Shown here: piece after piece, positions 29,161 to 61,000 of the stretch
How positions within the stretch are numbered: the stretch's first letter is position 1
How the letters are laid out: every line of letters begins with the position of its first letter
Assembly (NCBI RefSeq): GCF_037975245.1
Contig: NC_092578.1
Span: 19,413,821-19,477,820, forward strand
DNA: 64,000 nt
Origin: Apostichopus japonicus
Lineage: Eukaryota; Echinodermata; Holothuroidea; Aspidochirotida; Stichopodidae
Direction: 5' to 3'
Translations under genes and position numbers: made by a program
Notes under the pieces: generated by a model
Databases searched by the model: none
What the model was told of the DNA's origin: nothing
The model's input: only the letters and a program-made list of their open reading frames with translations

Positions 29161-31199
<2,039 letters not shown>

Positions 31200-35785: not shown

Positions 35786-38700
35786 ATGTTGAGAATGAGT
35801 TCGTCGGTCTTTTTATTAGTTTGGATGTTTCTCCTGACTACACAAACTGATCGAATCAATGCCAGCCATTTTCGTGGAGCTCTGATATCATGGCGGCCGC
35901 TAAATCCTCAACCTGTTGAAGGGGAAACCGTGATGGTAAGGAACTGTTAACGGATGACTTTAATATTATTAGTAAAAGTGTTATATCTTTAAGTTAAATG
36001 TGTAAAAAAGTAAGTTGGCCTAACGTTTCCATCCTAGCTGGACCTTCTTCAGAGGCTAAATGACAAGTCACAGTAACAGAAGGTATAAAAACACGCACAG
36101 AATACAGACAGGTTAATGAGCATGCATGGTTAACACAAAGATATAGATGTAAGGGAAATATGAGTAGAAAGGGATGGAGAGAAGAAAGAAAGAAACCAAC
36201 AGGGGAAGAGGAGAGGTAGGAGATAAACAGTGAAGGGACAATTTATTTATTTTGGTCTTTAAATTGAATTTGTATTGGATCTGAGGAACTGTGTGTCATC
36301 AGCTCCAGAATTTACATGTAATAATTGACGTTTTTAGAAAACGATTGAAACGTAAACATTTAAGTTTATTCCTATATGTTGAACTGAAATGCTGATATTA
36401 TGTCTGTATATAGCTTATGCAAGGTCATATGCCTGTTTTGAAGCCCATTTTGAAGAGCGTTCAGTTTACATAGGATTTCCTTACCACTTAAACTCACACA
36501 AGTACAGCTCTATGTAAGGATTTCGTTTACTATACATGACTGTTGATATGATTTCACTTATTCTGTATTGACTGTTAAAATTACAAGTACAAGACCATCG
36601 GATAGTTGGAGTGATGTTGAAAAGAAAATTTATGTTATAGTAAAAAAATTGCAACAAATATTTGCCATGCATACTGCAAATTGGTGCTCTATAGTTTACC
36701 GCTAAAGGCATATTCCGCTGATCCTAGTTGACTGCCTCCCAAAAGTGTTAGAAGTTTCCTGCATTCCATCTTCACAACACTTTGCATCGCAAACATTTGA
36801 ATGGTCTAGAGTTTGGTAACATTTTGTTAATGTATCTGGCAACAGTCGAGCGAAAGATGTCATCACATGGTCAGCTGAAAGTGTTTATATTTTTTTTGTA
36901 ATACTTAACTCAATTATTCACATGGGGTGAATAATTTTTATACCAAAACGTTGCGTTTTGATAAAATTCTAAGAACAGAGAACATTGACAGCTAAGCAAA
37001 TTTTCCGAAATGTATCACATTTCAAGGAGAAAAGCTTTTGAAGAAGAACTACCATCATGACATCACCTATACTGTACCCCTGCAGAAGTATAGAGGGTGT
37101 AGTTCAGCCAACAAGGGCGTAGGAACCGGGGGGGGGGGCTGGGGGGCGCCAGCCCCCCCAGTGAAAAATGTGGAGGGGCGGAAGTATCATTCCGCCCCCA
37201 CTTCGCAAGTCAAAAAACCCCTTTTTCATTTCCAAATGAGAAAAAAAATCTCATTTGGAGCACCAACTTGCATCTAAGGCCAGGTGAAAATACAAAATTA
37301 AGTTTACAAAATGGAGTGGGTGTTGAAGTGTGCTATATTGCACCAAATTGCTGAGGCCACCTGGAAATGCAAAAAAATCCAAAGGGGAGGGGGACACCCC
37401 CTCCCCTTAGACCCCTCCCCCAGGCCGGCCATCAGTCTTCAGCCCCCCAACCAAAAGTAACTTCCTACGCCACTGTCAGCCAATCAAAATAGTTTACATT
37501 TAATCATCAATATATCGCATTACAGGGACAAGATATTGAGCTGGAAGGTTTGGTCTATTAATAGTGTATAGAACATTTATGATATGCGTTGCATTTTCTA
37601 CCACCGGAATACCCCTTTAACGATGAAATGGAAACAGATCTGCAATATGTGGGATCATACCGTGCAAGTTATTTGTGGGTGTAACGTGTGTAACTACAGC
37701 AATCTCTTAAAGTATAATCAATGACTTTGTATGCAAAGTGTAATTTTTGGAATGTTAAAGGTGCAAGATAGAAAAATAATTATTAATTAATTAATTATAA
37801 GGCAAAGTGGAAACTCCTTTCCAATCCAAGGTTAAGAAGATACAATGATAGGACAGACTGAAAGACGGAGTTATAGTTACTTTTTTATAGCCGTTCATAG
37901 CTGTTGTTTTTAATGGTTTGTTTTTATTGGGTTTTTTTCAGATTGAATTTTCGTGGAGGGTGTCTTGGCAAAGATCGTTACGGCGTTGCACTGATTTTAA
38001 CATCATGAATCAAACCATACTGTTTGGTGAAGGAGCGCTTGTATGTAGGACCTGTTCAGATTTTGACAGTATAGCCTTGTATTTTATTTGTACAGGCTAC
38101 AGCGACTCAGAAGGCTGGACGTCAGGAATAAATAGAGCAATGTATAATGCTAGTGAAACCATGTTTACTGTAGGGTTAGTTACATCTACATATAAATCAT
38201 AGGACAAATAATTGTATAAATGTCACTGCAATTATTATAAAGTGTTTCATTTCTCCCTTACGTGTCTGTTATACGTACCTTCTCCGATCTAACTATCTTA
38301 CATCAATCAGTCATACTATTTTCACTTCACCTCAGCCACTAACCCATTCCGAAGTTTATATTTCTCCCTTCCCTATCTCCTATACAATACATCCATTTTC
38401 AAACAGACAATTAAATATTAACAAAACCTTGAGGGTAAACGAACGAGCAATATTCTCTTAATGGAATATTTACAAACTAAGAGAAAAGCTTAAGTTCTGG
38501 GAGGCTGATCCAGACCTGGCAACCCCACCCCCCCCCGGAGGAGAAGTATGCTAGAAAAAAAATCAATTGTTCATGACGGGCCGGCGTTTGCAAGGAGATC
38601 TACTCAACTCGCTTGAATCATATGTTTATATAGATAGTTGTTCATTCATTGATCCATCCATCCATTGATCTATTTATTCATTCGTTCATTCATTCATTCA

Positions 38701-41700
38701 TTTAGATAGATAGAAGTCATTCATTAATTCATTTATTTATTTATTTATATAATTAATTAATTAATTAATTAATTTTATTAAATAAGCAATTCTTCTTCTC
38801 CAAGAAGGATATCCTACTCGGTTTCGGTGTCAATGTAGCTCACCCATACAATTTTATATGAAGCATTTCATCTTTTAATTTAAATTGACTAAATGTATTC
38901 CTGTTGTAGAGGATTTTTTCTATAAGTTTACAATAAGTGTAAAAAAGTACACACAACATCGATATCCTAGTAAAAGTTAACTTCATGCAGCTTAAACAAG
39001 CCTTCGGGACATACGATTCTCTTTTCCATTAATCTCGTTCGATCAATTGGGCTGTTTTTCTTTGAACAACTGTTATTGTGTTATGACGTTTATATAATTT
39101 GAAGCATCTTTTTTTCCCTTCTCCCCCCTCCCCGTTTATTTCAACTATACATTAATATACAAATAACGTATCCATTCAAAATAGCAAAAATTAAATAACA
39201 ATGAAGTTGAGCATTACCATGCAGTATAATAACGACCAACGTGGCGGATAGAAAACAAATAAATATAATAAGAACATTTAGAAAAAGTACTACAATTTAT
39301 AGAAACACTACAGGAATCCCAGACATACTACAAAAATATTACAACCAATAACAGCAAAATATAAGAATTGAGGATGCGGAAATTGAGAAATATTAAATAT
39401 TTGAGATATTTATTAATGAGGAAAAAGCATCCTTGAGAAATTAATTTTATTCTGATTATTCTTTTTGCTATGTCGAAAAATAGATTTCTCCACTTTTAAT
39501 GCAAACGTGAACTTATGAATCAATTCATTACAACTTAAGATCTTGTTTTTGACGCTTGGTACTGAAAATATAGAACTTAAAATGAAGAATGAGAAAATGA
39601 TATAGGGTGACGTTTCTTTAATAAAAACCCAAAGAAAGAATCCTCTTTTGTGAATTGAATATTTAATTTGAAGCATCTAGTATGAACATGAACATGAAAT
39701 AATACTATACTAGCATCTAGTATGAAGTTTGTTCATTTGACTCAAGTTATCAATAAATGGAGGGAATTTGTTTTATATTGATATATTGATTGATTTATTT
39801 ATACAGATATTTTGGGAAAGATTGGCTCAATTTGATAAATGGCCGTGGTAATTGGGAGTTTCATTCTATTGTTGACCTGACAGTACGCGATGATACCGGC
39901 ATGATCAACAGTGCACCGGTGACTGATATACTCACTGTGGTTCCGTTCAAGAATGGCTGCACCAACACCCTTACAATACCCGGTAAGAGATAAAGACAGA
40001 TGAGACTACATGAGAAAATATTTGCTGCTGTTTCTAAATATGACAGCACAATATGGTTGGTAATTTAGTCAAAACAGATTATAATATTTTGCAGAGCAAG
40101 AAGAGAAAGTGAATGACCAGTAGTCCCGTCACATGAGAGCACTTTAAATTTGTGAAACGTTTAAAACCAGAATGCAAATTCATTGAGGTTTCGATGACTT
40201 CAATGCACTATAGCTTCTGTTTTTATAGTATAACCAGAACTAGCTGTTACAATAACACTATGGCATGATGAACACAGGTCAGTCTACTGTACGTGGCTAT
40301 ACACACCTCCACCAAAAACTATATATATTACTATATATTACTCTATATACTATATATATTGTACTCAATTTTATGAATCCACACACCAAGTTTTAGAGGT
40401 ATCCACGATTTCCATCGTTAGATATCATATAAAAGGTTTTTCAGAGTTTGACCTTTGGTGACCTATATTTGAGATTTGACCTCACAAGCAATAGGATTCT
40501 TGTACTTAATATGGCAAATCCATATACCATGTATGAAAAGTATCCATGATTGCATAAGAAATTATGTTTATGAAGGTTTTCAGGCCTCGACAATATTTTT
40601 AGTGCTCGTACTCGCTATTTGGCGACCGTGACTAAAAATCTACTCGCCAAATTTAACTCGCCAGTATAGGCCTATTATTATGTTGTCTAGCTACATGGTG
40701 AAGAACCTCTCAAGTCTTTCTTTGAACATGTAATTCCCAAACTGGATAAATAATGAATCTATTTGTACAAGAGCGAAACACGAGAATATATGTTGCTGCT
40801 TCTAAATATGAGAGTCAAACAAATAGATTCTCGTATTTATATAGAACAACACGCTGAAAGAGAGACATGTATCATGTGATTATAAAGATCTCCACAATTT
40901 CCCAATTTCCTTGTTCTTGTGGTGTTGTAATAGTAACGCATTTTACAACACGAACCTTTTAATCAAGTTAATTAATGATAGAAGATGGTTCATCTTTTTA
41001 GTTCGCGATGTTGACGGCGATGACATCAGATGTTTTTGGGCGACTACTTGCGGAAGTATCTGTGGTCCAGTACCGGGATTTACACTAGACTCAGTAAGTC
41101 GGAAAGATTTCTCATGCATATTTAATAGTTTCGTAAATATCTCCCTGATCGTTGTTGTAAAAAAAAAAAAAAAAATGTATCACATTGCATTATTTTCAAA
41201 ATATTTATAATTATTTGAAATAATTACTTGAAATTGTACGAAAGCAATGGTCCGTTTATGGTATAACATATTATTGTGCATCGTAACCTCCACTAAAAGG
41301 AAGAAAACCTGAATGAGTTCGGAAGTGTGTTTCTTTATATAATTCTTAAAATTCACGTTGTGGGTAAAAATTTCTTTATTTACTCTCTGTATAGGACAAT
41401 TGTGAGTTAGTGCTCCTGGACACATCAACCGTATTGTCAGGTCTTTACGGTATAGCGCTCGAGATTCGTGATTTTGCAAACGAAGCATCAACAACGCCCC
41501 TTAGTCAGACTCCCGTGCAGTTTATTTTGGACGTTAAATCGACCCCTGAAACGTGCAGCCAAATACCGATGTTCATTGCTCCAACTCCAGAATGTTATGG
41601 AACGCCAAAAGGACCACAGTGACATGTACTACTACTAATTTGACATGTACTACTACTAATTCGAAGTGTAATACATGTAAAATGTCGCGTACTACTACTA

Positions 41701-41983
41701 ATTCGAAGTGTACTACATCTAAAATGTCGCGTACTACTACTAATTCGAAGTGTACTACATCTAAAATGTCGCGTACTACTACTAATTCGAAGTGTACTAC
41801 ATCTAAAAAGTCACGTACTACTACTAAATTGGAGAGATGGCGCTATTCACAATCTTTCCGATACCATGTCATCGAGTTGCGCATCTGCATTAAAATAATG
41901 ATGAAGAAAACATTTTCTTTAATAATCTGTTATAATAATAATAATAATAGTATATCAATTTCAAGAGTTAAAACTGGTGTATT

Positions 41984-42046
<63 letters not shown>

Positions 42047-43540
42047 AAAGAGGTGCTACTGTTAATGAGCTAAAGTTAGGCTTCCTAGCCTTTTTCTATA
42101 TGCTAGGCCAGGCTGCGGCTAGGATATAGTGTCTAATTTAAATGATATTCCAAAACTGCTACTTGTTTAAATTATATACATGTCTAGTACCGTATGCATT
42201 TTAGGTGTTCTACAAAGGACCTGAATATAGGCCTACTATAGTACTAGGTCATGGATTAATTCCGAGCATAACTTAAGAGCCCAAATATACGTTACCGTTT
42301 AAATTTAGATTTTGGCACAGTAATGTGTGTATATGCAGAGCTTAGTATGCGTAGGATTAGGAGTATATGTGTACGTGTCAGTTATACTATTATTATTATT
42401 CTATTATTATCACTATTATTCACAAGCAGCAATTTTCCCGTCATTGAAATGTCAAGAATGCTTTTGATTCCCCAGCTGTGCCTAACTATATGCTATTTTC
42501 TATATTTGCCACAGACCTTAAAGGTATAAACTGTAAAATAGACATTTGAATCAACAGAGTATTAAAGAAAATGTTTTCTTCATCATTATTTTAATGTAGA
42601 TGCGCAACTCGATGACATGGTATCGGAAAGATTGTGAATAGCGCCATCTCTCCAATTTAGTAGTAGTACGTGACTTTTTAGATGTAGTACACTTCGAATT
42701 AGTAGTAGTACGCGACATTTTAGATGTAGTACACTTCGAATTAGTAGTAGTACGCGACATTTTACATGTATTACACTTCGAATTAGTAGTAGTACATGTC
42801 AAATTAGTAGTAGTACATGTCACTGTGGTCCTTTTGGCGTTCCATAGAATGTGGCTCGTGTGTGTCAGCAGCGGGTACCATATACATTGGACAACTCGTG
42901 GCAAGATCATCAGGCCCAACAGTCTCGTTTGTATCTCACCATGTTGTTGTAACAGAATAATAGTTATGTCCTTGAATATGCCATCTTTGGTACTATTAAC
43001 TCCTGCTTTTACCAGTTGTGCGAAAAATGTCCATTTTATTCTTCTTGAGGCAATGCAATGAAAAGTTCTCCATGCATCTTCACAACTGTTACGTCTTCGA
43101 GAAAATTATTAACATAAGAATCAGCCCACAAATTAATAAAAGAGAAAAGAATTAACCATTTAATCTGGCGAGTGGTTACTGAAATGAATGAAGAAGAAAA
43201 ATAATATATTACCTTCCGGGATATTCTGTGGTGTAATAAGATTTTTTGGGAGAGAACGCATCAACACCTCACCGAAAGCTACGCACAGTTATGCGAATAC
43301 TAAGTTATATAATTTAGCTTTGATTGCTTCCGAAGTAAATGGAACAATCTGCTTTTTCTCTCTTTCAGTATTACCAGTATAGAAACAGTTTCACCAGCTG
43401 GCCTGTTTACATCTGACATCATGCCGTACCCAGGAGGACAGCCCACAGATTACCTCATTGAAGTAGAATGGGAACCTACCGAAGTTCAATCATTTCTCTG
43501 CTTCCTAGCTCGTGACAGTGTTGGGTAGGTACATAACATC

Positions 43541-43587
<47 letters not shown>

Positions 43588-43688
43588 AAATAAATATATA
43601 TATATAGTTATGTATATAGTTTATATAGTTTGTTTATATATATATATATAGTTTCATATAAATATCAATATATATATACATAAATATT

Positions 43689-43740
<52 letters not shown>

Positions 43741-46700
43741 ATATAATTTTGCACGTTTTTTTCCTTCAGGAACTGCAGTCCATTATGCTGTGTGACGTTG
43801 AGTTCTATCGGTGAGTTTGGCTATTGTGGGGCATACATTGTACAGAGTCTTAACGTAAAGGTCAAATATGTACCAGCAAGTAAATCCTCCATCTCCCCCC
43901 CCCCCTCCCAGTCAAGCAGGGTATCGTATTGATAAAGATTGACATTGTCTTTGTTTAACTTTACCCTTCTTTCCATTCCATCCGACAGTAAAGCTTATAG
44001 CGTTCAATACACAGTGCGGGGAGAAGAATGATACGACACACACATGCGTATATACATTTATATTTAAATTGCAACTTTCGTTTTATAACAATAAATTCCA
44101 TACCTATACTAAACGTATTGAGATTGTAATTATCTCTATTTATGACCGGGAATCGGACGGATATTGTACACTCATCGACCATTTGAGCAAATATTGTACT
44201 AGAATTGCTGACCAACTCACGCCCCTTGAGGCATTGAACCATATCGCCTATTGGCTTCAAAGTTGATTGGTGGTATGTACTCGATTAAAGGACGTAGATG
44301 TGACTTCATGGATTGCCTCTAGTTGTTATAGGACTGGGCCCCATCCACCTCCTTTTTGAAGACTTCAAAAAGGAGACACGGTGATGTAATTTCCCCCGTA
44401 CCCGACCTGTATCTCAAAGCTCCTGGCAAATGGCTGCTACAAAACACTGTGATTCATTGGTGTTACTCCTTTTTTTTAAATATTTTGTGTAACTTTGTAG
44501 TGGTTTCCATTATTTTGTTAGGTCTGAGATTTGAGTCGTTACGTAAATCCATCGAAAGTTAAACTACGCAAGTTCAAGAGGAAATCCCTTGATTTTCTTT
44601 ACCAACAGATTCTCCTCCCGAGGTGCTGTCTAACTCACTGACTCCAGCAAGTGGATCCACTCTCGTGGGAGTCGTGGCAGGAATATTAAACATGCAATTA
44701 CAATTTAATGAGGGGGTAAGGAGAGAAATATCAACCATACGGGGTGGAGCCAACTTGTACAAGGGCGCAGGAACGGGGGGTGGGATTGGGGGGGGGGGGT
44801 TCAGGTGATGCGATTTGTCTCTATATAGACCAAAACTGATTTTTGAGTTTTTGTCTTTCTGTAAGTAAAGTTTAAGAGGGAATATAATGAATAACGGAAT
44901 TGTTATGACAGCAGAACTTGCACTATGGATTTTATTTCCCAATGTAGTTGAATGTACTATATGACAGGTCGAAGCTAAAATCCTATATAAAGTCAACCTG
45001 TAATTCATTCTTTGTATTGGTCGGGGGGCTTCTATCGTTAAAGTTCACTGTTAGAGAGACGTACCTGGCATTAGACATCACATGGTATGGAAAAATTACT
45101 CGAAGGATTCAGAGGCAGGTTGTCACCCCCTCTCCCCCCCCCCCGGCATCTTGGCAACGATACTGATATATCAGTAACAAATTTTGAACTCTTACACACA
45201 GATAAGTCGTCCGACGGTATCTGCTTTTATATCAGTTTTTGACGAAACCGACACAATGGTATTTCAAGTTGATGCAAGTGATGACACCCAAGTGGATTTC
45301 CTCGAGAATGACGTCATTGCCTTCGTCATCCCTGCAGAGGACTTCATGGGATCATATTACGTAACCATAGATGCAGCTGTTACCCTTTTGAGGTCCTCAT
45401 GTGCCATTAAATCTGTTGCTGTTGCAGATACGTCATTTTGGACCTTCACAATATGTAAGTTCATCAGAAATCACATCAGAAGTACTTTTCAAGTAGTTGA
45501 ATGCGGTGGCATGTTAACGTCTGTAGTCAGGCAAATACCTGGGTACAAGATATGTTCTTTTTTAGCGTGTTGCAATACTGTAAAACAGGTGCCGAGAAAG
45601 GTCCGGAGTGCACGTCGATGATCAGATCGCGAACTGATTACCAGCTTACATTTAGACCGTAATTATCGGCTCTGAATTCTACAGCTATAGCGGGCACATA
45701 CTACAGTATAACAAGCACATAGCCTATATTAGGCTGTTTGATTTCTTTACCATGGCTATATGTGACCAAGGAATAACATATTTGCAGATACTTTTTTATT
45801 CATTACACTTTTTTATTCATCAATATGTTGCTTTATATATTATATATTTATTCATAAATATTTCATATACCATATTAGTCTCCCTCCCCGCAGTCGTTAC
45901 AGATTTTTATTAATTTTACTTTGTTTGCTGAAAAGTGGCACCCTGGGATTTTCATTGTTTCGTGACCCCTCCCGTTCATAATCTTCAGTCGATGAAACCA
46001 GTTGAACTATTGGCTGTTGCCGGGGGAGGTCCCGATGCGTTCACTACGACGTTCAGAGGACGGGACCACGGAGAGTTTTACAGTAATGGGATGTTCGTTA
46101 GTTACGAAGCGATACTGGTAAGCTATATTCCCTTAATATGAAAAAGATGTTATTTTGATATCAAATTTAAAGCAACTAGTTGTGATTGCAGCGTCTCCCA
46201 TCAGGGGAATACATCGGCTTACCTATATAATAGACCTATACTGTTCCTGACAATTGCGTCAGATAATAAAAGCGGAAATGGGATTAAAGATGAATACCAA
46301 TTGATTAATTAATCTTCTGTCTACGCCAAAATTTTACTGAAATTTATGCGGGTTCATTGCGGTATCTCTCTGTGTGGAAAGAAACTAGTGCTGAAAATTT
46401 TCCAAAGTTGAATATTGCCTCGATATCAGAGCAATCATCCCCCCCCCCCAAACAAAAGTAATGGGTAAGTTCCATTTTCTTTTACAGTTTGCATAGAGCG
46501 CATTATTATTCTAGATTATATGTAATTACATGTCATGCAACCGGTAAACTAATAGCTTTACCGATTTTACAATTAGGGGGCAACATCAACAGATGGGGAC
46601 ATGCTCCGAATATACAAATCAACTTTACTACAACCAGAGCAGGAATGCAGCAAGGCTAAACGCTTTGGAGTACACTTTTGCGATTATTTTTCTACGTTGC

Positions 46701-49700
46701 AACGATTCAGCGCTCAAGTTTTAATACACAACCAAGAAGGTATGTTTTGTTAAAAGTACAGAGAAATAATCACATCTCAAACGCGTTGAGGTTAAAAATG
46801 TACTTGTGCATGGTGTTACCAAAACTTTAAAAACTTACGATGCACAACTTAGGGGACTTTTCGTTAGTTTTCGGTCTATGTTGTAGCCAGGGTTGGGTTG
46901 GTATTAGGCCTCATCCCTACCCGAAATGCTATGGACTAACATCGCCGAAGAAGTTGGTTCATTTGGTGATATGTATACAACACGACCTTCCAAAATAACA
47001 CCCCCCCCCCCAAAAAAAATTCTCCATCGACTCAACCCATACAACGGAACCTCCCCCCCCTCATAAGCTTTCGGAGCTACCACCCCCACCCCCCCATTAA
47101 TCGTGACTTTTCTTGTCAACATATGAAAAATTCATATAAAAGTACAATGGTTAATCTTCACCTTTTAAATGATGATTTTATAAATGACAACATTCTTACC
47201 TCCGATTAAGAAAGAGAGTGTATTTTAAGAATCTACTCTTTTCAGCTGCGTCACTTCTTTCTTTTGAGATGCGTCACTTCCGGTTAGACCGAAGGAGAGG
47301 CAAATCCATCATGCTAGGGCAGACCGTGGGATATCTATGGATGGTGTGAAGGCGGCGGTAGTTGGGGGACGAGCGTGGGGACGGGTAGGGGGGGAGTCTA
47401 AAACGTGTCATTGAAAGTGGTATATTGGTAAAGGTATCCTTATTTACTTCTGAAAACATAAGGATGTTAAGTTTACCCTACACTAGCAATTCATATCGTC
47501 ATTGCAACAACATATAAAATAGAACTGGCGAGTTCAGAGGATGTGGTCATTTATAGCAATGTTGACGCCATACGGGGTGTTTTAATCTTTAATGGATTTC
47601 TTTCTTGATGTATTTCTTGATCCTTCTCTAAATTATGACGTATGTCTGCCTGATTTGTATATCTTCTAGTTCTAATTCCAAGGGACGCCATACGAACTGT
47701 AGTGGTTTCTACTGGTGAAACTCTTACATTGTGCATTAATCCAAATATTCCAAAGGCTTGGAAAGGACCCATTGCATGGAGTTTTAATGGACGTGACCCA
47801 CTTTGGTTACGTCGTTGGACCGGTTCTAGTTGCGTCCATGTTAAACACGTTCAAACGTGTCAGGCAGGTGTGTACGAAGCTTATCGACGTATCTGTGGAA
47901 GGAAGGAAAAACAACATGCTTACTTTGATGTCCGTGTACGGGGTATGAAAGTTATTTTCGTCAAAATGAACTTGATCAGTGCGTTTGTAACGTAACACGT
48001 TTTTTTTCACAGGCGAATGAATACACCTGTAATTTGCATTGCGTTCCGCAATAGTCGTCTGCTATTATATTGCGCACTTAATTTGTATTTACACTATGCA
48101 AGCACGGCATGGCCTGAATAACGTAAAAAATGACTAGTGACAAATTGATCGTCACGATTAGCTTGGAGTTCTTTGTTCTGTGGCTTAAAATTGTCAACAA
48201 AATATCAAGTGAGGTTTTTTCATAGGCTTTATAGAAGTTTACTTCCAGAAACGAAAGATTTTAAGTGCAATTTTGACAATGAAATTAAATATAGGTCTAC
48301 GTATTATTTGTCTAGTTTCGTTTAGCCGAAAGTGCAAAGGTGCCTAGAGATTACGTCTGATCAAGTACCTTTTATTTTAAAGCAATGACACTACAAAAGT
48401 AAACGCTTCAATTCGGACTGAACTTGGAATTGTTTACATAGCCTTCATGTTAAACTTGAAAGACTCAACTTCTAGCAATAACTAGGCTAGTACAGTATAG
48501 TAAAGTTAGTCCGTATGTGTGTGAAACACACTTCATCGACCATTATGTCAATGCATTGTTCATGTTGCTATGACAACTGACATTTATTGCAGGTGCCGAA
48601 TGCTTCAGATCCTTATAGGCATGGCTTCAAAGTATATTGTGTTCAATGTATGTAGTGTTGTTGATATATAACCTATCATGGTTATCCGTGTTATGGTATA
48701 TTTGCTTTTTTACGTTGTTTTGAGACTGTTAACTATAATTAAGTAACAACCAACTACAGGGTACCATTACGATACATTTGTTGGTTATTCTACCTGCATA
48801 ATCTTGCGATAATGACACGGTAAACCGGTCATAAACTTATAATGATTGTAACATTCGTTTTATAGAATAACAGGAAATAAACTGTCTTTGAAAGATCACA
48901 CGATCCTTCGAGAGGTGGCATGTGTCTGTCACACTCTCAGAAGCACCTGAAGATGCAGCCAGGCCTCGCGAGAGGATGGCGTCAAGGGAGCTGCAGCCCG
49001 CGATAAAATGGGATGCTCTGGAAAAGTGGGATAAAGAATAATGCGTTGCACTTTTCGGAATATATATACTTAAAAGCAAGAACCGGAGACTTCAAAATGG
49101 GGGACCGGTGACGTAGTTGTCACTTGAGCCCGTCGCGGCCTTCACTAGTTTGTATAGATATTATAGTAGAGGAGATATTAGAGAATGTCCATTCAATGTT
49201 ACATTTTCGTTCGTACAAATTCTATATTTTCTTTTCCACTTTCAATTTTGGCAGCATGTCCAGATGGTTTCCACACCCCTCCGGCTTGTAGCAGTACTTG
49301 CTCTGTTACTTGTGTGCTTGGATACTGTGGTGACGATGGACAATGCTTGTGCAGGAATGGCCTTACTGGCGAAAATTGTGACACAGGTGAGATAACACTG
49401 CGTATAAGGTTAAAAAAAAAATCAAATCACCCTCCCCCAGCACATGCAGAAATGACAACCTAAATCCAAATTTCATCACAGATCGAACATCCCTAACCCG
49501 TGTTAAACAAAAATCAACACAATAGTTCAAGTTTCATTACAAAATATCCCCAACCCCTTCCTTCAGTTAGTCTCATGCATGCAGGTGCCATGAAACTAAA
49601 TATCAACTCAAAACTGTTGTGTTTCCATAGCAACTCGTGGACAGTTTGGTGTGATTGATGGCGACATTCCCTGTGCGACAGTCGGTCTGGACGCGGATTG

Positions 49701-50031
49701 TAAGGGTAGCTTGATGTGCAGTCAACATGCAGGGTGCTCATGTGCTCCCGGCTGGAAAGGAATTAACTGCGATGAAGGTAAATATATTTATCTTGAAAGG
49801 GATGGAGAAAGAATGGGGGAGGATGTTGGTGGGAGGGGGTCCGGCCCTACACCATTCTTCAGGTCAGGAAAGACATTTCTGACATATTTCTTCATTTTTT
49901 GTTTTTCAGTTAATCCTTCAGATCTTTTCTTCACATTTTCTTCAACAGAGTGTGAATCCCTGACATGGGGCCCTGATTGTGTTTTCTCCTGCAACGGAGG
50001 TACCTCTTGTGACCGCTTCACCGGAGTGTGA
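35786..50031 (+). CDS. Copy A: secreted ectodomain protein, SHFRG/ISWRP-type module + Ig-like + three Tie-like EGF modules; exon 5 split by a transposon
   Basis: Fifteen exons chain in phase to 820 residues if the transposon in exon 5 is ignored: 35786-35935, 37942-38174, 39807-39982, 41002-41093, 41395-41595 plus 42853-42926, 43369-43524, 43770-43810, 44609-44715, 45202-45454, 45936-46117 (acceptor uncertain; 45989 has a better polypyrimidine tract but breaks phase), 46577-46739, 47670-47942, 49255-49386, 49631-49777, 49949-50031. Exon 1 encodes a signal peptide, then ASHFRGALISWRP. Exons 2-9 form a large ectodomain (SWRVSWQRS, VDLTVRDDTGMINSAPVTD, DVDGDDIRCFW, PTDYLIEVEWEPTEVQSFLC, SYYVTID, FWTF) that I recognise only from uncharacterised invertebrate proteins. 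The 47670 exon is Ig-like (GETLTLCI, YEAYRR). The last three are EGF-like, closest to Tie receptors (SCAPGWKGINCDE, SCDRFTGV). No transmembrane segment or kinase precedes the TGA. Exons 1-9 and 10-15 could be separate genes. Confidence 0.75.
36016..36058 (-). ncRNA. Hammerhead-like motif, copy A intron 1 (degenerate)
   Basis: Minus strand: AGCCTCTGAAGAAGGTCC, AGCTA, GGATGGAAACGTTAGGC. The core strands are kept but stem II is weakened (GGTCC against GGATG). It is orthologous in position to the motif at 55250-55294. Confidence 0.35.
37112..37475. mobile_element. hAT-like nonautonomous element in copy A intron 1
   Basis: Ends CAAGGGCGTAGGAA and TTCCTACGCCACTG form imperfect terminal inverted repeats, flanked by the 8-bp duplication TCAGCCAA (37104-37111 and 37476-37483). 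The 364-bp interior has G and C runs and no coding capacity. Copy B has no insertion at the equivalent site near 56380, so it arrived in copy A after the duplication or was lost from B. Confidence 0.85.
38636..38790. repeat. Tetranucleotide-rich tract (CATT/ATTA), copy A intron 2
   Basis: Runs of CATT, GATC/CATC and ATTA units; the copy B counterpart at about 57375-57510 is shorter and differs in unit number. Confidence 0.85.
40430..40565 (+). repeat. Diverged unit of the TTTGACC repeat family, copy A intron 3
   Basis: Contains GAGTTTGACCTTTGGTGACC and GATTTGACCTC with CAATAGGATTCTTGTACT; its orthologue is at 59465-59625. Confidence 0.65.
41596..42846. mobile_element. 1,251-bp DNA transposon with ~330-bp terminal inverted repeats, inserted in copy A exon 5
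   Basis: The element starts TATGGAACGCC and ends GGCGTTCCATA and is flanked by a perfect 6-bp duplication GAATGT (41590-41595 and 42847-42852). Copy B has the uninterrupted exon at the same point. Each arm of roughly 300 bp holds a 42-bp minisatellite (built on GTACTACTACTAATTCGAAG), about four units on the left and one fewer on the right; the arms end near 41925 and 42565. The middle is AT-rich with a (TA)n tract and no transposase. A 6-bp duplication with 5'-TAY...RTA-3' ends fits what I recall for IS3EU-type elements; that class is tentative. Confidence 0.9.
43548..43740. repeat. (CA)n/(TA)n microsatellite cluster, copy A intron 6
   Basis: A CACACA run passes into several long TA stretches broken by GTTTATATAG-like spacers, ending just before exon 7. 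Confidence 0.95.
44760..44808. repeat. Possible fragment of a hAT-like element end
   Basis: CAAGGGCGCAGGAACGGGGG resembles the left end of the element at 37112, followed by a G run; no right end or duplication was found. Confidence 0.35.
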
Positions 50032-50699
50032 TATGGATGTCAACCTCCTTATGTATATAGCTGGACAAGCAACCAGCGAGAGAGACGCTGTACTTTCATG
50101 CTTTCAAATTGATACATAGATGGATTAGCTTACTTCACATGAAGACATTTTTACAATTTTAAATTCTTTATCCAGCAAGTCAAACCTATAAGAAGTCAAA
50201 TTTCTCTTAGTCTATACTATACTATTTCGACGTTTCAACATTGTATCATTATTATTATTATGATAATTCGCATATAACAATCGTCACAGAGTTGTTAAAT
50301 TTATTTAATTCTAATTCTAATTCACTTTTAGTGAATTCAGGGTCGGACGGAGCCAAAAATTGTTACCGGCGCTGGGCTTTATCTCTTGTTTTTTGTTTCT
50401 TTCGATGGGAGTTCAAGTCAGTACCAATGGTGTGTAAGATGAAGGTTAACAGGGTTTTTTTCGATGAAAATTCTTCGTCATATTTTTAGTGATATGTTTC
50501 CGGGGAAACAAAGTTTAAGACATTGAAGAACAATTAAAGAATATAAATGTAATTTATCATTTATAAGCTGCGACTAGTTATTTATTCCTTTATATTCACT
50601 TATCATTATGTATAGGCTACATAAAAAGCTATTAAGGTTTTTATAAAAAAGGAAACAACTACTAGGAAAAAAATAAACAAAGAGAGAAAACAAGAGTGC
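50032..50699. other. 3' flank of copy A
   Basis: The first 90 bases after the TGA match the inverted pseudogene flank and encode, in frame, an EGF-like cysteine pattern past the stop (YGCQPPYVYS). The rest is AT-rich and shows no gene. Confidence 0.5.
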
Positions 50700-51959: not shown

Positions 51960-53104
51960 CCTTCATAAACACAACGTCAATTCTGCGAATTACACACGCT
52001 AAGTCAGGTCACTAGTCATCTGAGGTATTTAGGTCGTTCTTTTCGAACCTGTACTCCAGGGCTGCTGTTAGCGAGGATCTCCAGGAAGACTTGCTGTCTG
52101 GTATAGACAAGGCCCACCCCCCCCCCCTCAGAGTAAAAACGATAGCTTGGGTTCGAATCTCTCCGTTGGTGAACTCTGGACAGCGGTAGCAGCGATGAAG
52201 AAGGGAAAGTCCCCCGGTCCCGATGGCCTTCCTGCTGAGTTCTATAGGACCTTCTGGGAGGTTCTCGGTGGGGACTTGAGAGACGTGTTCGCTACCTCTT
52301 TCCAGTTGAATTACATAAGTCCAAACACAGCGGGTTGGAAATATTGTTCTCCTCCAAAAGTCGGGAGACCCTTTGGACCCGAATAGGCGTCCAATAACGC
52401 TGTCAACTGTGGACTACAAAATCCTGGCCAAAGCATTAGGAAATCGCTTAGCGGATGTGATGCCGGACATTGTAGGTCCTCTCCAGACTCGTGCTGTGCG
52501 AGGCAAGTGTATTCAACATAACCTCTGGTTGATGAGAGACTTGATCGAGTTTGTTAAAGTTTGTGATTTGCCATGTGCACTGGTCTCCTTGGACCAGGAG
52601 GAGGCCTTTGACATGGTAGATCACGACTTTCTGTTCAGAACCTTAGAGTCCTTCGGATTGAACTCAGTGTTTATTCGTTGGGTCTCGTTACTATATAAGC
52701 AGTGGCGGAGCGTCCATACAGTCAGGGGGGCGGATGCCCCCCATGCCCCCCTGACGGACTCAAATGGACTGCTGACGCCCTTTTCAGCTGTTTACCACTT
52801 TTGACTTATTCGCGATTATTTCGTTTTTTTATTGTGCTCTCATCTACCTATTGACATTTGTCACATTTTTGACACCTATTTATACTTCGTTTTCTGCAAA
52901 TTAACCAGGAAAGGCCAGGAAAGGGTGATTTCCGGCGATCTAGGAAGTATCTGTACTCAAAAAATTTCTGTACGCTCCGCGCCAACGTGTGGTGGCGCTC
53001 CGCTTAGACAGTGTCAAAAGCACCCCTACAGACCATCCTTGCCCCCTTGACCAATACCCCTAGCTCCGCCACTGTATATAAGGACGTCTCGAGTATGTAC
53101 TTAA
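51960..53104 (+). mobile_element. LINE B reverse transcriptase fragment (L1/Tx1-like), frameshifted
   Basis: Shows the fingers region GKSPGPDGLPAEFYRTFW and the block RPITLSTVDYKILAKALGNR, QHNLWLMRDL, then LDQEEAFDMVDHDFLF and RWVSLLYKDVSSMYL. The KSPGPDG...EFY and LDQ-x-AFD signatures are characteristic of L1/Tx1-type ORF2 proteins. A frameshift lies near 52375, and a hAT element splits the frame after SLLYK. It ends where the TTAA element begins. Confidence 0.82.
52700..53074. mobile_element. hAT-like nonautonomous element inserted in LINE B
   Basis: Perfect 12-bp ends CAGTGGCGGAGC and GCTCCGCCACTG, with the 8-bp duplication TATATAAG (52692-52699 and 53075-53082). Removing it rejoins the LINE reading frame (LLYK then DVSS), which confirms the boundaries. 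It is the same family as 32526-32816. Confidence 0.92.
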
Positions 53105-53654
53105 AGGTCAGTGGAAGTGTAAACTTACATTTTTGTAGGTCACTTTCAGTGCAGCAGATTGATTTGAAACTTACGTAGATGAAAAGAGTGTATTTCATAA
53201 CCCCAAATATCGAATTTTGAGTTTCAAACTCATTTCGTTCTTGTGTTACCTAAATTAAATATCCGGGTCCGTTGACGTCAAGAGGGGAACGAAATGAATG
53301 TCGCTATTGATTTTACACAGTAATTGCTGATTTTTCTTCCTCCATAGGTGAAAAGTTCAAGTTAATGTTTTCTTCAAAGTCAATAAATGCTTGCATCTAT
53401 ATATTCTTCAAAATTCTGTAACTTTTCATTCAAATCAGATTCGCCGTTCTTAAGTGGCAGAGTTTTGAAAATGTAAATTTTGCATTATCCTTTGCTTCCC
53501 CCCTCGACGTCACAAAAACATTACGTAATAGTAAATCTGTCTAATTTTCACACTGCATCGACTAAAAGTCAGTCTGGTGGTTGGTGGTTGGATTTTCAAT
53601 ACTAATCAGAAGGAATCAGAATCTTCAAAGTCAAGTCTACACTTCCACTGACCT
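53105..53654. mobile_element. TTAA-target DNA element (Kolobok or piggyBac type)
   Basis: Inverted ends AGGTCAGTGGAAGTGTA and TACACTTCCACTGACCT lie directly inside TTAA duplications (53101-53104 and 53655-53658). It is 550 bp with no transposase. It interrupts LINE B, and fewer than 30 bases separate it from the hAT element. The ends do not begin CCC/CCY, which favours Kolobok over piggyBac. Confidence 0.8.
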
Positions 53655-55017
53655 TTAACAGTGACAACAAGTGCATTTTCTGTTATATTGGCCGCCATCT
53701 TGGAAATGGGTGACCCAAGCAACGTGTAATGATCATCATCTGTTTCAGTGACCCCGGAAACACCTGAATTGACCCCTCATTTGCTCATTTCTGATTTTTA
53801 CAGCCAGATATATGACATTTCCTTTTTTTCTGGCGGCCATCTTAGATTTTTGCCGCCATCTTGGAAATGGGTCGCCCAAGCAACATGCCATGACCATCAT
53901 CTGTTCCAGTGAACCTAGGAAACACCTGAATTGACCCCTCATTTGTTCATTTCTGATTTTTACAGCCAGATATATGACATTTCCTTTTTTTCTGGCGGCC
54001 ATCTTGGATTTTGGCCGCCATCTTGAAAAATCGGAGCCGTCAGGGTTCCACGGATAAAATCAATAGACAGGTCGAAAAGAAACTCCATGCCAAATTTGGT
54101 ACTTTTGTCCGGCCGGTAACGTTAAAGTTGCTAAGCCACCTGACTATTGTAAGGGACCAGTTATTATTAACGCTTACTTTTAGGGGGCAATTTTTATTAT
54201 AGTTATCCAATATAATTTTTCAGAGGAATTGGGATATTGTATCAATTTGTTCAAATGATGTACTTGAAAGTTGTTTATTTGGAGGTCATTAACATTTTTT
54301 CTACATCTTTTGTAAACTTAACCCAATTAGTGTTTTTGGGAGAACGGAAGTAGTTTCTTGTGTTACTAGGGGTGGATAAGTTCAATTTGCATAAGAGTAT
54401 ATGGTGATCACTATAAGTTTATGTTGTCAATTATTTGAAGGTTACGAAGGTTTTTATGACTTCTATTATTGGTAATTATTAAATCAAGTATTTCTTATTT
54501 GCCACTAAAAGGGTCAGTTCAGGTTTTTGTTCCCACATTAAAAATATAAAGGTTATTGTTCTCAATTAAGTTGAGGGAATTACGACCATTGTCAGTGGTT
54601 TTGTTGCAGCCAATATTAGTGTGGTGGATATTTAGGTCACCTAAGAGTATAGTATTTTTTATTTGCATTTTAGTATGGTGCAGTATAGTTCTACATATAT
54701 ATATTCTTCACGGTCACCAGGCTGGGTCAATTTGGTCTTTGAACACAGTCGGTAATTATGATTGGTTAATACGATTGTTGGTATGGTTGACAAGATATAG
54801 TTTATGGTAGTGACAATGGTTTGGTATATGCAGTTATATCAATGACGAGGGCAAGGCCACTCTCGATAAAGGGTTCCTGCACTACTTAAATCAATCAGGT
54901 AAAGTTTAGAATCTACCCTGTTTTTCTTCTTTTATAATCTTTGTACCATAACATTTGTAATTTAATTCTAATGATATACGCCTATATCAACTCGTTTATC
55001 CTGTATTTTTAGCACAG

Positions 55018-58000
55018 ATGTCGAGAATGAGTTCGTCGGTCTTTTTATTAGTTTGGATGTTTCTCCTGACTACACAAACTGATCAAATCGTTGCCAGCCA
55101 TTTTCGTGGAGGTCTGATATCATGGCGGCCGCTAAATCCTCAACTTGATGAAGGAGAAACTGTGACGGTAAGGAACTGTTAACGGATGACTTTAATATTA
55201 TTAGTAAAAGTGTTATGTCTTTACATTAAATGTGTAAAAAAAGTATAAGTTGGCCTGACGTTTCCATCCTAGCAGGATCTTCTTCAGAGGCTAAATGACA
55301 AGTAACAGTAACAGAAGGTATAAAAACACGCACAGAATACAGACAGGTTAATGAGCATGGTTAACACAAAGAGATAGATGTATGGGGATTAGTAGAAAAG
55401 GGATTGTGAGAAGAACGAAAGAAACCAACAGGGGAAGAGGAGAGGTAGGAGATAAACAGTGGAGGGACAATTTATTTATTTTGGTCTTTAAATTGAATTT
55501 GTATTGGATCTGAGGAACTGTGTGTCATCAGCTTCAGAATTTACATATAGTTATTGACGTGTAGAAAACGACTGAAACGTAAACATTTAAGTTTATTCCT
55601 ATATGTTGACCTGAAATGCTGATATTATGTCTGTATATAGCTTATGCAAGATTATAATGCCTGTTTCATTAATACTGTTTGTACATTTTGAAGAGCGTTC
55701 AGTTTATGTATAGGATTTCCTTACCTGCACTTAAACAACTCACACAAGTACAGCTCTTTGTAAGGATTTCGTTTACTATACATGACTGTTAATATGATTT
55801 CACTTATTCTTTATTGACTGTTAAAATTACGAGAACAAGACCATCGGATAGTTGGAGTGATGTTGAAAAGAAAAGTTATGTTATAGTTAACAAATAGCAA
55901 CAAATATTTGACATGCATACTGCAAATTGGTGCTCTATAGTTTACCGCTAAAGGCATATTCCGCTGATCCTAGTTGACTGCCTCCCAAAAGTGTTAGAAG
56001 TCTCCTGCATTACATCTTCACAACACTTTGCATCGCAAACATTTGAATGGTCTAGACTAGAGTTTGGTAACATTTTGTTAATGTATCTGGCAACAGTCGA
56101 GCGAAAGATGTCATCACACGGACAGCTGAAATTGTTCATATTTTCTTTGTAATACTTAACTCAATCATTCACATGGGGTGAATAATTTTGATACCAAAAC
56201 GTTGCGTTTTGATAAAATTCTAAAAACAGAGAACATTGACAGCTAAGCAAATTTTCCGAAATGTATCACATTTCAAGGAGAAAAGCTTTTGAAGAAGAAC
56301 TACCATGATGACATCACCTATAGGCCCTGTGATCCACTCCTATCCCTGCAGAAGGGTCGAGGGCTGTACAGTAGTAGTGCAGCCTGCAATCAATACAGTT
56401 TACATTCAATCATCAATAAATCGCATTATAGGGCTGGAAGGTTTGGTCTAGTAATAGTATAGAACATTTATGATATGCGCTGCTTTTTCTGCCACCGGAA
56501 TACCCCTTTAACGATGAAATGGAAACAGATCTGCATTATGTGGGATCTCAGACCGTGCAAGTTATTTGTGGGTGTAACGTGTGTAACTACAAAAATCTCT
56601 TAAAGTATAATCGATGACTATGTATGCAAAGTTTAGTTTTTGGTATGTCAAAGGTGCAAGATTGAAAAATAATTAAAAATTAATTAATTATAAGGCAAAG
56701 TGGAAACTCCTTTCCAATCCAAGGTTAAGAAGATAAAATGATAGGACAGACTGAAAGGCGGAGTTATTTAGTTACTTTTTATAGCCTTTCATAGCTGTTT
56801 TTTTATGGTTTGTTTTTTATTGTTTTTTTTCAGATTGAAATATCGTGGAGGGTGTCTTGGCGAAGATCGGCACAACTTTGCACTGATGCTGACATCATGA
56901 GTCTAACCATACTTCCGGGTGAAGGAGCGCTTGCATGTACCTGTTCAGATTTTGATATATCATTGTCATATATTTGTACAGGCTACAGCGCCTCAGAAGA
57001 CTGGACGACAGGAATAAATACAGCAACGTATACTGCTAGTGAAAACATGTTTACTGTAGGGTTAGTTACATCTACATATAAGTTATAGGACAAATAATTG
57101 TATAAATGTCACTGCAATTATTATAAAGTGTTTCATTTCTCCCTTACGTGTCTGTTATACGTACCTTCTCCGATCTAACTATCTTACATCAATCAGTCAT
57201 ACTATTTTCACTTCACCTCAGCCACTAACCCATTCCGAAGTTTATATTTCTCCCTTCCCTATCTTCCTATACACCCATTTTCAAAACAGACAATTAAATA
57301 TTAACACAACCTTGAGGGTAAACGTACAAGCAATATTCTCACAATGGAATATTTATCCATTGGATACATGATCATGGAACATTGATCCATCCATCCATTG
57401 ATCCATTTATTCATTCGTTCGTTCATTCATTCATTTAGATAGATAGAAGTCATTCAGTCATTTATTTATATAATTTATTAATTAACTAATTAATTAATTT
57501 TATTAAATAAGCAATTCTTCTTCTCCAAGAAGGATATCCTACTGGGTTTCGGTGTCGATGTAGCTCACCCATACATTTTTATATGAAGCATTTCATTTTT
57601 CAATTTAAAATGAATAAATGTATTCCTGTTGTAGCGGATTTTTTCTATAAGTTTAAAATAAGTGTAAAAAAAGTACACACAACATCGATATCCTAGTAAA
57701 AGTTAACTTCATGCAGCTAAAACAAGCCTTCGGGACATACGATTCTCTTTTCCATTAATCTCGTTCGATCAATTGGGCTGTTTTTCTTTGAACAACTGTT
57801 ATTGTGTTATGACGTTTATATAATTTGAAGCATCTTTTTTCCCTTCTTTTTCCCCCTCCGTTTATTTCAACTATACATTAATATGCAAATAACGTATCCA
57901 TTCAAAATAGCAAAAAAATAAATAGAAATGAAGTTGAGCATTACCATGCAGTATAATAACGACCAACATGGCGGATAGAAAACAAATAAATATAATAAGA

Positions 58001-61000
58001 ATATTTAGAAGAAGTACTACAATTTATAGAAACACTACAAGAATCCCTGACTTACTACAAAAATATTACAACCAATAGCAGCAAAATATAAGAATTGAGG
58101 ATGGGGAAATTGAGAAATATTACATATTTGAGATATTTATTAATGAGGAGAAAGCATCCTTGAGTTCCTCGAAATTAATTTTAATTCTCATTATTCTTTT
58201 CGTTATGTCGAAAAATAGATTTCTCCACTTTTAATGCAAACGTGAATTTATGAATCTATTCATTACAAATTAAGATCTTGTTTTTGACGCTTGGTACTGA
58301 AAATATAGAACTTAAAATGAAGAATGAGAAAATGATAAGGGTGACGTTTCTTTAATAAAAACCCAAAAAAAGAATCCTCTTTTGTGAATTGAATATTTAA
58401 TTTGAAGCATCTAGAATGAAGTTTGTTCATTTGACTCAAGTTATCAATAAATGGAGGGAATTCTTTTATATTTTTTGTTTGCCGCTAATGTCAAAAGATT
58501 GTAACATTGAATGTATTCTCTGAAGGTTTTATGCTACTGGGTTGTGGCTGAACTTCTATCATCTTACCTTCCTGTACGCACATGATGTTCGACAAGCAAA
58601 TCACACACCTCTGTGTACCTAAACCTCGTGTGAAGGCTTACTGATTCAGAAGTTTTACTGTACTCTGCCGCAAGTCTTTGGAATCAGTTACCAGACCATC
58701 TTCAAACTTGTTCTATATCTAACCGCTTTTAAGAGTTTACTGAAAACTCATTTTCTGTTGTGCATTTCAGTGTTGATGCTTTCCACTTTGTGAAGCGCCA
58801 TGGGCAGTTACTCGTTTCCTGAAGTGGCGCTATATAAATCTACATTATTATTATTATTATATATTGATTTATTTATTTATACAGATTTAGTGGGAGTGCT
58901 TGGCTCACTTTGATGAATGGCGCTGGTAGCTGGGATTTACTCACTATTGTTGATCTGACAGTGCGCGCTGATACCGGCAGGATCAACAGTGCACCGGTGA
59001 CTGATATACTCCCTGTGGTTCCGTTCAAGAATGGCTGCACCAACACCCTTACAATACCCGGTAAGAGATTAAGACAGAGACATGAGAAAATATTTGCTGC
59101 TGTTTCTAAATATGACAGCACAATATGGTTGGTAATTTAGTCAAAACAGATTATAATATTTTGTAGAGCAAGTAGAGAAAGTGAATGACCAGTAGTCCCG
59201 TCACATGAGAGCATTTTAAATTTGTGAAACGTTTAAAACCAGAATGCAAATGCATTGAGGTTTCGATGACTTCAATGCACTTGACTTCTGCTTTTTAGTA
59301 TAACCAGAACTAGCTGTTATACAATAACACTATGGCATGATGAACACAGGTCAGTCTACTCTACGTGGCTATACACACTTCCACCAAAAACTATAGGGGT
59401 ATTGTACTCAATGTTATGAATCCACACACCAAGTTTTAGAGGTATCCACGATTTCCATCGTTAGATATCATGTAAAAGGTTTTTCAGAGTTTGACCTTTG
59501 GTGACCTATAGGAGATTTGACCTCACAAGCAATAGGATTCTTGTACTCAATATGGCAAGTCCATATACCATGTATGAAAAGTATCCATGATTGCATAAGA
59601 AATTATGTTTATGAAGGTTTTCAGGCCTCGACAATATTTTTAAAAGTACTCGCTATTTGGCGACCGTGACTAAAAATTTACTCGCCAAATTTAACTCGCC
59701 AGTAGGCCTATGATTGTTATTCAAGTCTCCAAAGTACAGATCTGCAACATCAATACTTTCTATGGACAAAGGTCAGGCAGTTAAGCAGATACACGGTGCT
59801 ACGTAATTGCGCATTGAAAAGTCATATTTCTTTGCAGTATGAAATTTAAACTTTTTCCACCAAAAGTAAGTGTTGATATTGAACAAAGTAAAACATGTCG
59901 CAGAATCATAGATAAGCAGGCCTACTGCAATGTCTTAAACAAATAAGAGTAAAACACATACGAAGATAGCTTGGCTTCTGTTACATTATGGCTCCTATAT
60001 TACTAGGCATATACTATATACAGTAGCTAGGTGTGCACGAGTCCTAAGCCTGTACAGTGTATACCTTACAGCTACTTTGAACCGCTACCGTACTCGATTA
60101 GCGCGACTTCGTACATTTGCCCCGTGATTTATCTTGTCTTTTAGCTGCAGATTGATGCGCGAATAAAATATCGCTATTACTCTTTTACACTATACCTAAA
60201 TCAAAGCGATCTCTTACGCAATGAAAATCTTAGATTGTAAGAGCATATTACTTCCAAAAATCCTAGCAGCAACAACAGCAAACTTGTTTCAAAACTCCTT
60301 AAATTGTTCTTTACTTGCGAATTATTACTGATAGCCAGTAGGAAAATGCCTTAAGAAATAATTAAGGAGATGTTTTGTTATCTTAAGTGTATTGTTATTT
60401 TGACTGGAATTCTTCACGTTGTTGTGTTAACGAACACTGTTCTACCCAACCGTTGCTGCAGGCCTAGACAACATAAAAATGCTCACAGGCCTAGCCAGGT
60501 TTGTTCAAGTTGTCCCATAATCATGAACGTGACGAAAGTCGAACGTTACTTTTAAGGCCTAGCTATGCTGGAACTGGTGGACGAGACTACACAAATTGAG
60601 ATCAACAGCCGATCCAGACAAAAGCTCGTGAACTCACTGCCAAACTAAGACCGTTTAGGCCTGCACAATTGTTTCGCATTGAGATTGGTCATAGAAAAAT
60701 CTAACTAGACGAACTGTTAAGTTTCACAAACGCTGCCGTGTCACAACGAAACTACATCCAACCTGAACTTAAATACGACGGAAAACGTCCAGTAGAACCA
60801 CTGTACTACAAAGAGTACACCTTTTTTTTGCACGCAGGTAAGGCTTCCGAGCGGCACGTTAAAGCCAATGCAAATATGTTCGAGTTTTCAGTTTTAGATT
60901 CTACTGATGTCCATAAGCTCATTTCCAATAGCCTCCTATCCGTATGAGGCGTAACGCACATGTTATCTGGTAGGCTGGTAGGTGGGAGATACCGGTAGCT

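Follow-up and report, generated by a model that had tools for sequence, protein, structure and literature searches.

Exons rich in replacement changes beside slowly changing introns are familiar from abalone sperm lysin and from other gamete or venom genes. Among duplicated genes, four described systems are close to the locus considered here. In the red and green opsins of primates, selection maintains a divergence peak at exon 5 in the face of gene conversion (Teshima and Innan, via PMC3924837), and in primate segmental duplications, accelerated exons change faster than their flanking introns (PMC3906575). Exon segment switching, named ASSET, has been described in viperid three-finger toxin genes, which combine similar introns with distinct exon segments (PMC2474615), and in the GOT1 paralogues of the copepod Tigriopus, islands of divergence persist under gene conversion (PMC3728101). 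Here we describe two neighboring copies, A and B, of a gene of the sea cucumber Apostichopus japonicus, both of which begin within a window of 64,000 nucleotides (C18:19413821-19477820 of a 671.6-Mb assembly). Between A and B, exon 2 and the first part of exon 3 have diverged faster than the introns. The pattern is real, and its kind is already known from other duplicated genes.

Divergence of exons and introns between copies A and B

In the gene model built here, copy A has 15 exons and spans 35786-50030. Copy B begins at 55018 and extends beyond the window end, its complete protein being the annotated protein P0011. Exons 1 to 5 of both copies are letter-identical to annotated A. japonicus proteins (P0010 for A and P0011 for B; 820 and 817 residues), and both proteins are encoded on one 20.4-Mb record. 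The first three exons of each copy have AG/GT boundaries and open frames:

35786..35935, + strand: copy A exon 1, with the start codon, signal peptide and start of the SHFRGG module (ATG and GT donor; homologous in B and in copies D and E, introduced below; identical to P0010)
37942..38174, + strand: copy A exon 2, hyperdivergent, with 30/227 mismatches against B plus two codon indels (A-B alignment)
39807..39982, + strand: copy A exon 3, first 110 bp (exon 3a) hyperdivergent (21/110) and last 66 bp conserved (1/66) (A-B alignment)
55018..55167, + strand: copy B exon 1 (gene model; homology to A)
56834..57060, + strand: copy B exon 2 (gene model; homology to A)
58885..59060, + strand: copy B exon 3 (gene model; homology to A)

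An original prediction, made from the letters by eye, had counted in exons 1 to 3 about 44 codons with amino-acid changes, about 6 with silent changes only and two indels; a codon alignment gives 43, 6 and 2, with both indels in exon 2. The clustering of changes that it described is borne out by the counts listed above, the divergence peak comprising exon 2 and approximately the first 110 bp of exon 3. The intron 3' of exon 2, said to be almost unchanged, has 3 mismatches in 194 sites; this near-identity stands for A 38187-38380, while the matching B segment is 57073-57266, the B coordinates first given having been 14 bp too high. The description of exons 4 and 5 as far more alike holds for the protein (9 replacement differences in 224 sites) and fails at silent sites, where 11 of 70 differ (dS, 0.178), a level above that of the introns.

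Clean noncoding DNA, comprising introns 1 to 4 and ~400 bp upstream, differs between A and B at 215 of 4432 sites (4.9%). No noncoding stretch of equal length among those compared reaches the count of exon 2 or of exon 3a: the maxima are 19 mismatches in 227 sites and 13 in 110 sites, against 30 and 21. This confirms, after proper alignment, that these exons outpace the introns (Fisher test of exons 2 and 3a against noncoding DNA, p = 4e-11, computed with 50/337, the measured count being 51/337). Three blocks in introns 1 and 2 (A 37081-37520, 38476-38640 and 39691-39772) were left out of the A-B counts as nonhomologous, with wider margins for the window counts; when they are included, introns 1 to 4 differ by 8.3, 6.0, 4.0 and 5.8%, and exons 2 and 3 are still higher, at 13.2 and 12.5%. 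Mismatches lie nearer the intron level in exon 1 (10/150), exon 4 (8/92) and exon 5 (12/201). Along the protein chain, A and B differ at 27.6% of positions in exon 2, 35.9% in exon 3a, 18.8% in a second rise in exons 6 and 7, and 0.8% in the EGF part. The introns among the six 3' exons (exons 10 to 15 in copy A numbering) differ by 2.8%, compared with 5.3% in introns 1 to 4.

As a neutral yardstick, we used the substitution spectrum of 4078 A-B intron sites, split by CpG. Against this intron-calibrated, CpG-aware expectation, exons 2 and 3 carry 42.7 replacements where 16.6 are expected (2.57-fold; p = 1.3e-7). CpG hypermutability was rejected as the source of this excess, which remains after CpG modelling. 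Exon 1 has 8 replacement and 2 silent changes (6.4 and 2.3 expected), and exons 4 and 5 have 9 and 11 (12.6 and 4.9 expected; p = 0.012 for silent changes). Within exons 1 to 5, the replacement excess is therefore found only in exons 2 and 3, while silent changes lean high except in exon 1.

A contrast of this kind could be mutational, with exons 2 and 3 intrinsically hypermutable or the introns constrained. Silent changes over exons 1 to 5 number 23.3 against an intron expectation of 12.7 even when corrected for CpG (p = 0.006), and the A-B intron mismatches are over-dispersed (p = 5e-6), both of which would fit. A control family points the other way. On C3, three genes that lie within 0.2 Mb of one another (H1 to H3; L022-L024) share the same N-terminal module; H1 matches the ZP-domain protein P0017, a match on which the ZP link of all three rests. 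In the three pairs, introns 1 to 4 differ by 7.1, 6.5 and 3.8%, and exons 2 and 3 by 2.4, 1.7 and 1.6% at replacement sites and by 7.4, 4.0 and 5.6% at silent sites. In these genes, exons 2 and 3 are therefore below the intron rate at replacement sites, with silent rates scattered around the intron rates. (For exons 4 and 5, the rows with H1, two of the three pairs, were left out, H1 exon 5 being mis-registered.) Moreover, copy D is below its intron rate in exons 2 and 3, and the silent excess of exons 4 and 5 fits exchange with D and E. We consider a purely mutational origin of the peak improbable.

Codon models and lineage-specific changes

Relatives were collected by a whole-genome protein search from which only the best candidates were taken, so that their number is a lower bound. 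Copy D lies at ~4.41-4.44 Mb of C11, with exons 1 to 5 that translate to the annotated protein P0012, and copy E lies at 23.12-23.13 Mb of C11. A further relative, F, lies near B and carries ZP parts. On C18, two SHFRGG-module genes ~75 kb apart (G1 and G2; L016-L019) are 99.9% identical over 11.5 kb and represent either a very recent duplication or an assembly duplicate; at that identity they were uninformative as a comparison pair and were set aside.

The site test proposed in the original prediction was applied to exons 1 to 3 of A, B, D and E. Model M2a was preferred to M1a (twice the log-likelihood difference [2dl], 18.3; p = 1e-4), with 8% of codons assigned a replacement-to-silent rate ratio (omega) of 8.0. 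In a parametric bootstrap under M1a, 0 of 100 simulated sets reached 18.3, the largest value being 12.1. M2a was also significant for exon 2 alone (p = 0.002) and for exon 3 alone (p = 0.005), and exons 4 and 5, used as a control, gave a 2dl of 2.5. With one copy left out at a time, p was 0.06 without A, 0.002 without B, 1e-4 without D and 8e-4 without E. Under these models, a subset of codons in exons 1 to 3 has an omega above 1.

We then assigned changes to lineages, using D and E as the outgroup and an expectation from each copy's own intron rate. In exons 2 and 3, changes unique to A comprise 19.2 replacement and 7.8 silent changes, against 5.0 and 1.7 expected, and those unique to B comprise 9.0 and 1.0, against 2.6 and 0.9 (P = 0.0013 for replacements). 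For D the counts are 6.0 and 1.0 against 12.0 and 4.0 expected, and for E they are 10.0 and 8.0 against 11.5 and 3.9. The replacement excess therefore belongs to the A/B pair, and chiefly to A; it is two-sided in A and nearly replacement-only in B. The A-unique silent count comes partly from codons that also change their amino acid, and silent-only codons in exons 2 and 3 number 4. In exon 2, 21 of 228 sites carry A-unique changes, compared with 59 of 3533 intron sites.

The approximately fourfold rise of A-unique changes in exons 2 and 3, silent and replacement alike, would also fit a history without selection for new amino acids, in which conversion limited to the exons replaced this stretch of A with that of a more diverged paralogue or allele outside the assembly; the ancestor of the exon would then be older than that of the intron. 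Silent divergence in exon 2 agrees with such an import, being greater for A (0.32 from D and 0.42 from E) than for B (0.17 and 0.22), as does the confinement of the tree conflict in exons 4 and 5 (below) to exons. The switching of exon segments in three-finger toxin genes (PMC2474615) provides a precedent. Against an import, no donor was found: the DNA of A exon 2 matches the genome at 2 places, A and B, in a search that also missed D and E and is thus insensitive. In addition, the A-unique residues fall at positions kept by B, D and E, and the excess on the B lineage is nearly replacement-only, at 9:1. On balance, we regard an imported segment as rather unlikely.

Probable exchange between paralogues, and the insert in copy A

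The original prediction had called for a check for gene conversion, and exchange is indicated. We scored tree-informative sites over A, B, D and E; for the introns, we pooled eight introns or intron ends with good alignment across the four copies. Pooled introns give 429 sites grouping A with B and D with E (AB|DE), 3 grouping A with E and B with D (AE|BD) and 2 grouping A with D and B with E (AD|BE). In exons 4 and 5, the corresponding counts are 5, 8 and 1 (Fisher test against introns, 6e-12), and in intron 4, which lies between these exons, they are 26, 0 and 0. The tree conflict thus involves genes on C18 and C11 and is confined to the exons. The sequences concerned are the following:

41002..41093, + strand: copy A exon 4, with silent sites common to A and E against B and D (AE|BD 4, AB|DE 0, AD|BE 1)
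41395..41595, + strand: copy A exon 5, portion 5' of the insert (AE|BD 4, AB|DE 5)
41596..42845, no strand assigned: 1.25-kb foldback element within copy A exon 5 (inverted arms; GAATGT on both flanks; in-frame stop; many genomic relatives)
42846..42925, + strand: copy A exon 5, portion 3' of the insert (homologous to B exon 5)
63022..63113, + strand: copy B exon 4 (gene model)
63408..63675, + strand: copy B exon 5, the gene continuing past the window end (gene model; P0011)

Third codon positions account for 6 of the 8 AE|BD sites, so that convergent selection at the protein level is an unlikely cause. Most simply, sequence of the exons would have been exchanged between the C18 and C11 genes without intron 4, and we infer gene conversion from this conflict. 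The AE|BD tract is interrupted by AB|DE sites, so that several short events would be needed. Given the conflict, no single simple tree describes how the copies are related, and exchange accounts for the silent excess in exons 4 and 5. In D and E, unique changes occupy 3 of 242 sites where intron 2 begins, compared with 35 of 283 in intron 4, and this first part of intron 2 looks like a homogenized stretch in these copies. A and B may themselves have been homogenized by conversion.

A bolder possibility is that the template was spliced RNA copied back to DNA, with the module reshuffled exon by exon and exons 2 and 3 of A being one import. If true, RNA-templated exchange would be a transcript-templated route of diversification in an echinoderm. 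The AB|DE sites that interrupt the exon 4-5 tract speak against it, and the exon 4-5 data are explained more simply by short DNA tracts that were stopped by divergence of the introns; we think an RNA template quite doubtful.

The element that splits exon 5 of copy A has long inverted arms and 42-bp internal repeats and is flanked by copies of GAATGT. Read from the genome, the frame stops eight codons into the element, and the protein ends with ECYGTPKGPQ; the annotated protein P0010 is without the insert. Related elements occur at many places in the genome, and because three other places are 98-100% identical to it over at least 796 bases, the insertion looks recent. In the six 3' exons, copy A has 11 changes against 15.2 expected, near the neutral rate, and copy B has 0 against 7.8, so that A may be under weaker constraint there.

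These features raise the possibility of relaxed constraint, in which a repeat-bearing copy A is decaying and its exons drift. The insert with its premature stop and the near-neutral 3' exons would agree with decay, as would a comparison with D as reference, in which 38 amino-acid changes are A-only and 19 are B-only (p = 0.016), with A altering residues common to B and D. However, drift should not exceed the intron rate, and A-unique changes in exons 2 and 3 run at four times that rate. The exons of A that lie 3' of the insert are open, and the insert is apparently recent and absent from P0010. Relaxed constraint was therefore set aside as a full explanation, above-intron rates not being expected from drift, and we judge it very unlikely as the cause of the peak.

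Instead, we lean, by a little, toward a combination of selection and gene conversion. A and B are tandem copies of a gene for a probably secreted protein with an SHFRGG module, Ig and EGF parts, and much of the module's first beta-rich domain is encoded by exon 2 together with the first two thirds of exon 3. At a subset of sites in that domain, differing amino acids would have been favored or preserved by selection, above all on the A lineage, while gene conversion between paralogues and recent duplication would have kept the introns and the 3' exons alike. The outcome would be a divergence peak that ends at or near exon borders.

A number of results weigh against this reading. The diversifying selection that the original prediction drew from the contrast of exons and introns is partly supported: the replacement excess and the site-model class agree with it, while mean dN/dS is not above 1. 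Furthermore, with nonallelic exchange indicated in the gene, exon divergence above intron divergence does not by itself prove diversifying selection. A dN/dS at or below 1 in exons 1 to 3 had been named in advance as evidence against selection; the value is 1.23 between A and B (p = 0.28) and 0.93 over the four copies (model M0; not different from 1, p = 0.71), which comes close to that outcome. For the same exons and copies, a branch model detected no difference in omega among lineages (p = 0.41). D and E have no replacement excess over introns in exons 2 and 3. Silent changes lean high in these exons (10.3 against 5.6 expected; p = 0.058) as well as over exons 1 to 5 as a whole. The A-unique silent excess is significant (p = 0.0004), and the burst in A, at 19.2:7.8 against a neutral ratio of ~3:1, is not replacement-biased. 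The site test leans on copy A, as the leave-one-out values indicate, and it is not perfectly clean, the six 3' exons used as a control giving a 2dl of 7.8 (nominal p, ~0.02). The site models were our own implementation of standard codon models on four sequences only, and recombination, indicated among the copies, can inflate such tests. Finally, predicted loops hold no surplus of variable sites (26/60 loop against 35/68 strand positions), although 8 of the 12 best sites fall in predicted loops.

Encoded protein, neighboring features and known systems

The A and B proteins start with a signal peptide and a module opening with ASHFRGG; more Ig-like parts follow, and then a stretch encoded by an Ig-like exon and three EGF-like repeats. 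Inspection by eye revealed no membrane segment, so the protein is probably secreted. The remaining exons of copy A are the following:

43369..43524, + strand: exon 6 (gene model)
43770..43812, + strand: exon 7 per the annotated protein P0010; an alternative donor at 43879 is used in our gene model
44609..44715, + strand: exon 8 (gene model)
45202..45454, + strand: exon 9 (gene model)
46002..46117, + strand: exon 10 core (gene model); the exon starts further upstream in P0010
46577..46739, + strand: exon 11 (gene model)
47670..47942, + strand: exon 12, Ig-like by inspection, with no Pfam match (gene model)
49255..49386, + strand: exon 13, EGF-like repeat (gene model)
49631..49777, + strand: exon 14, EGF-like repeat (gene model; weak below-cut-off EGF matches)
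49949..50030, + strand: exon 15, truncated EGF-like repeat and stop codon (gene model; C terminus the same in B, D and E)

In Pfam searches with A/B-type proteins, the N-terminal SHFRGG module had no domain match; the matches obtained were weak EGF and bacterial-Ig hits, all below cut-off. Some proteins that share the module carry the annotation integrin beta-like protein C or D, but no integrin beta or VWA Pfam family was found at E values up to 1 in P0010, P0011 or P0012. Protein searches placed the N-terminal module in Antedon, oysters, a clam, rotifers and one A. japonicus ZP-domain protein, and a profile search for it in other animals gave P0018 (38% over 57% of the query) and P0020 (32% over 46%). 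AlphaFold2 models of copy B are beta-rich and fairly confident for approximately residues 29 to 490, with low confidence beyond, and the SHFRGG module of a relative is likewise beta-rich (mean predicted local distance difference test score [pLDDT], 89.8). Sequence searches of solved structures returned nothing useful (0 matches in the first and two weak ones in the second; best E, 0.008). Among the titles listed in literature searches, none named the gene family of A and B, which does not prove the family undescribed. The domain might bind a variable partner, such as a microbe or a self/non-self or gamete ligand. A recognition role of the module would be plausible, although the loop analysis lends it no support.

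Other features of the window and genome were also noted. The three EGF exons of the A gene have an inverted remnant at 31127-32073 (- strand; 82-87% identity to 49242-50108), whose second EGF exon differs by 2 bp and is thereby shifted in frame, as judged by eye. Five places on C1 (18.65-19.08 Mb and 1.37 Mb) match only the Ig exon of the A/B family, at 50-61% identity, and are perhaps Ig-EGF genes like P0013. A reverse-transcriptase fragment below the Pfam cut-off at 62478-62756 (+ strand) begins in a ~3-kb stretch of B intron 3 that A is without, and another reverse-transcriptase fragment lies at 52319-52804 (+ strand). The window also contains an SF3b1 domain of a splicing factor 3B subunit 1 gene (1498-2061, - strand), a polyketide cyclase/lipid transport domain (12095-12505, + strand), which we take to be COQ10-like, and a tandem array with a period of ~50 bp (18345-18709, by self-match).

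The locus offers an echinoderm case that lets selection and nonallelic gene conversion be studied at the level of single exons. It also brings its own control, the clustered relatives H1 to H3, in which the same exons are conserved. If the selected sites are polymorphic, the SHFRGG module, for which no Pfam family was found, would be a candidate recognition domain in a commercially farmed animal. A and B share replacement-rich exons beside slow introns with abalone lysin and other gamete or venom genes; unlike those genes, A and B showed no link to gametes or venom here.

Compared with the four duplicated systems, A and B resemble the opsins in being nearby duplicates with one highly diverged, putatively functional region and little-diverged flanking introns; unlike in the opsins, two exons share the peak, and signs of exchange extend to other exons and to genes on another chromosome (PMC3924837). 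As with the toxin genes, the introns of A and B are similar and their exon segments distinctly different; in contrast to those genes, no donor was found for A exon 2 (again by the insensitive search), and no search here ties the protein to toxins (PMC2474615). The coding exons of A and B outpace introns within duplicated DNA, as do the accelerated exons of primates, but the present case concerns a single echinoderm locus, examined by means of four paralogues, a site model and an expectation calibrated on introns (PMC3906575). Like Tigriopus GOT1, A and B have an island of divergence alongside putative gene conversion; the islands are intronic in one gene pair there, whereas in A and B the island is coding (PMC3728101).

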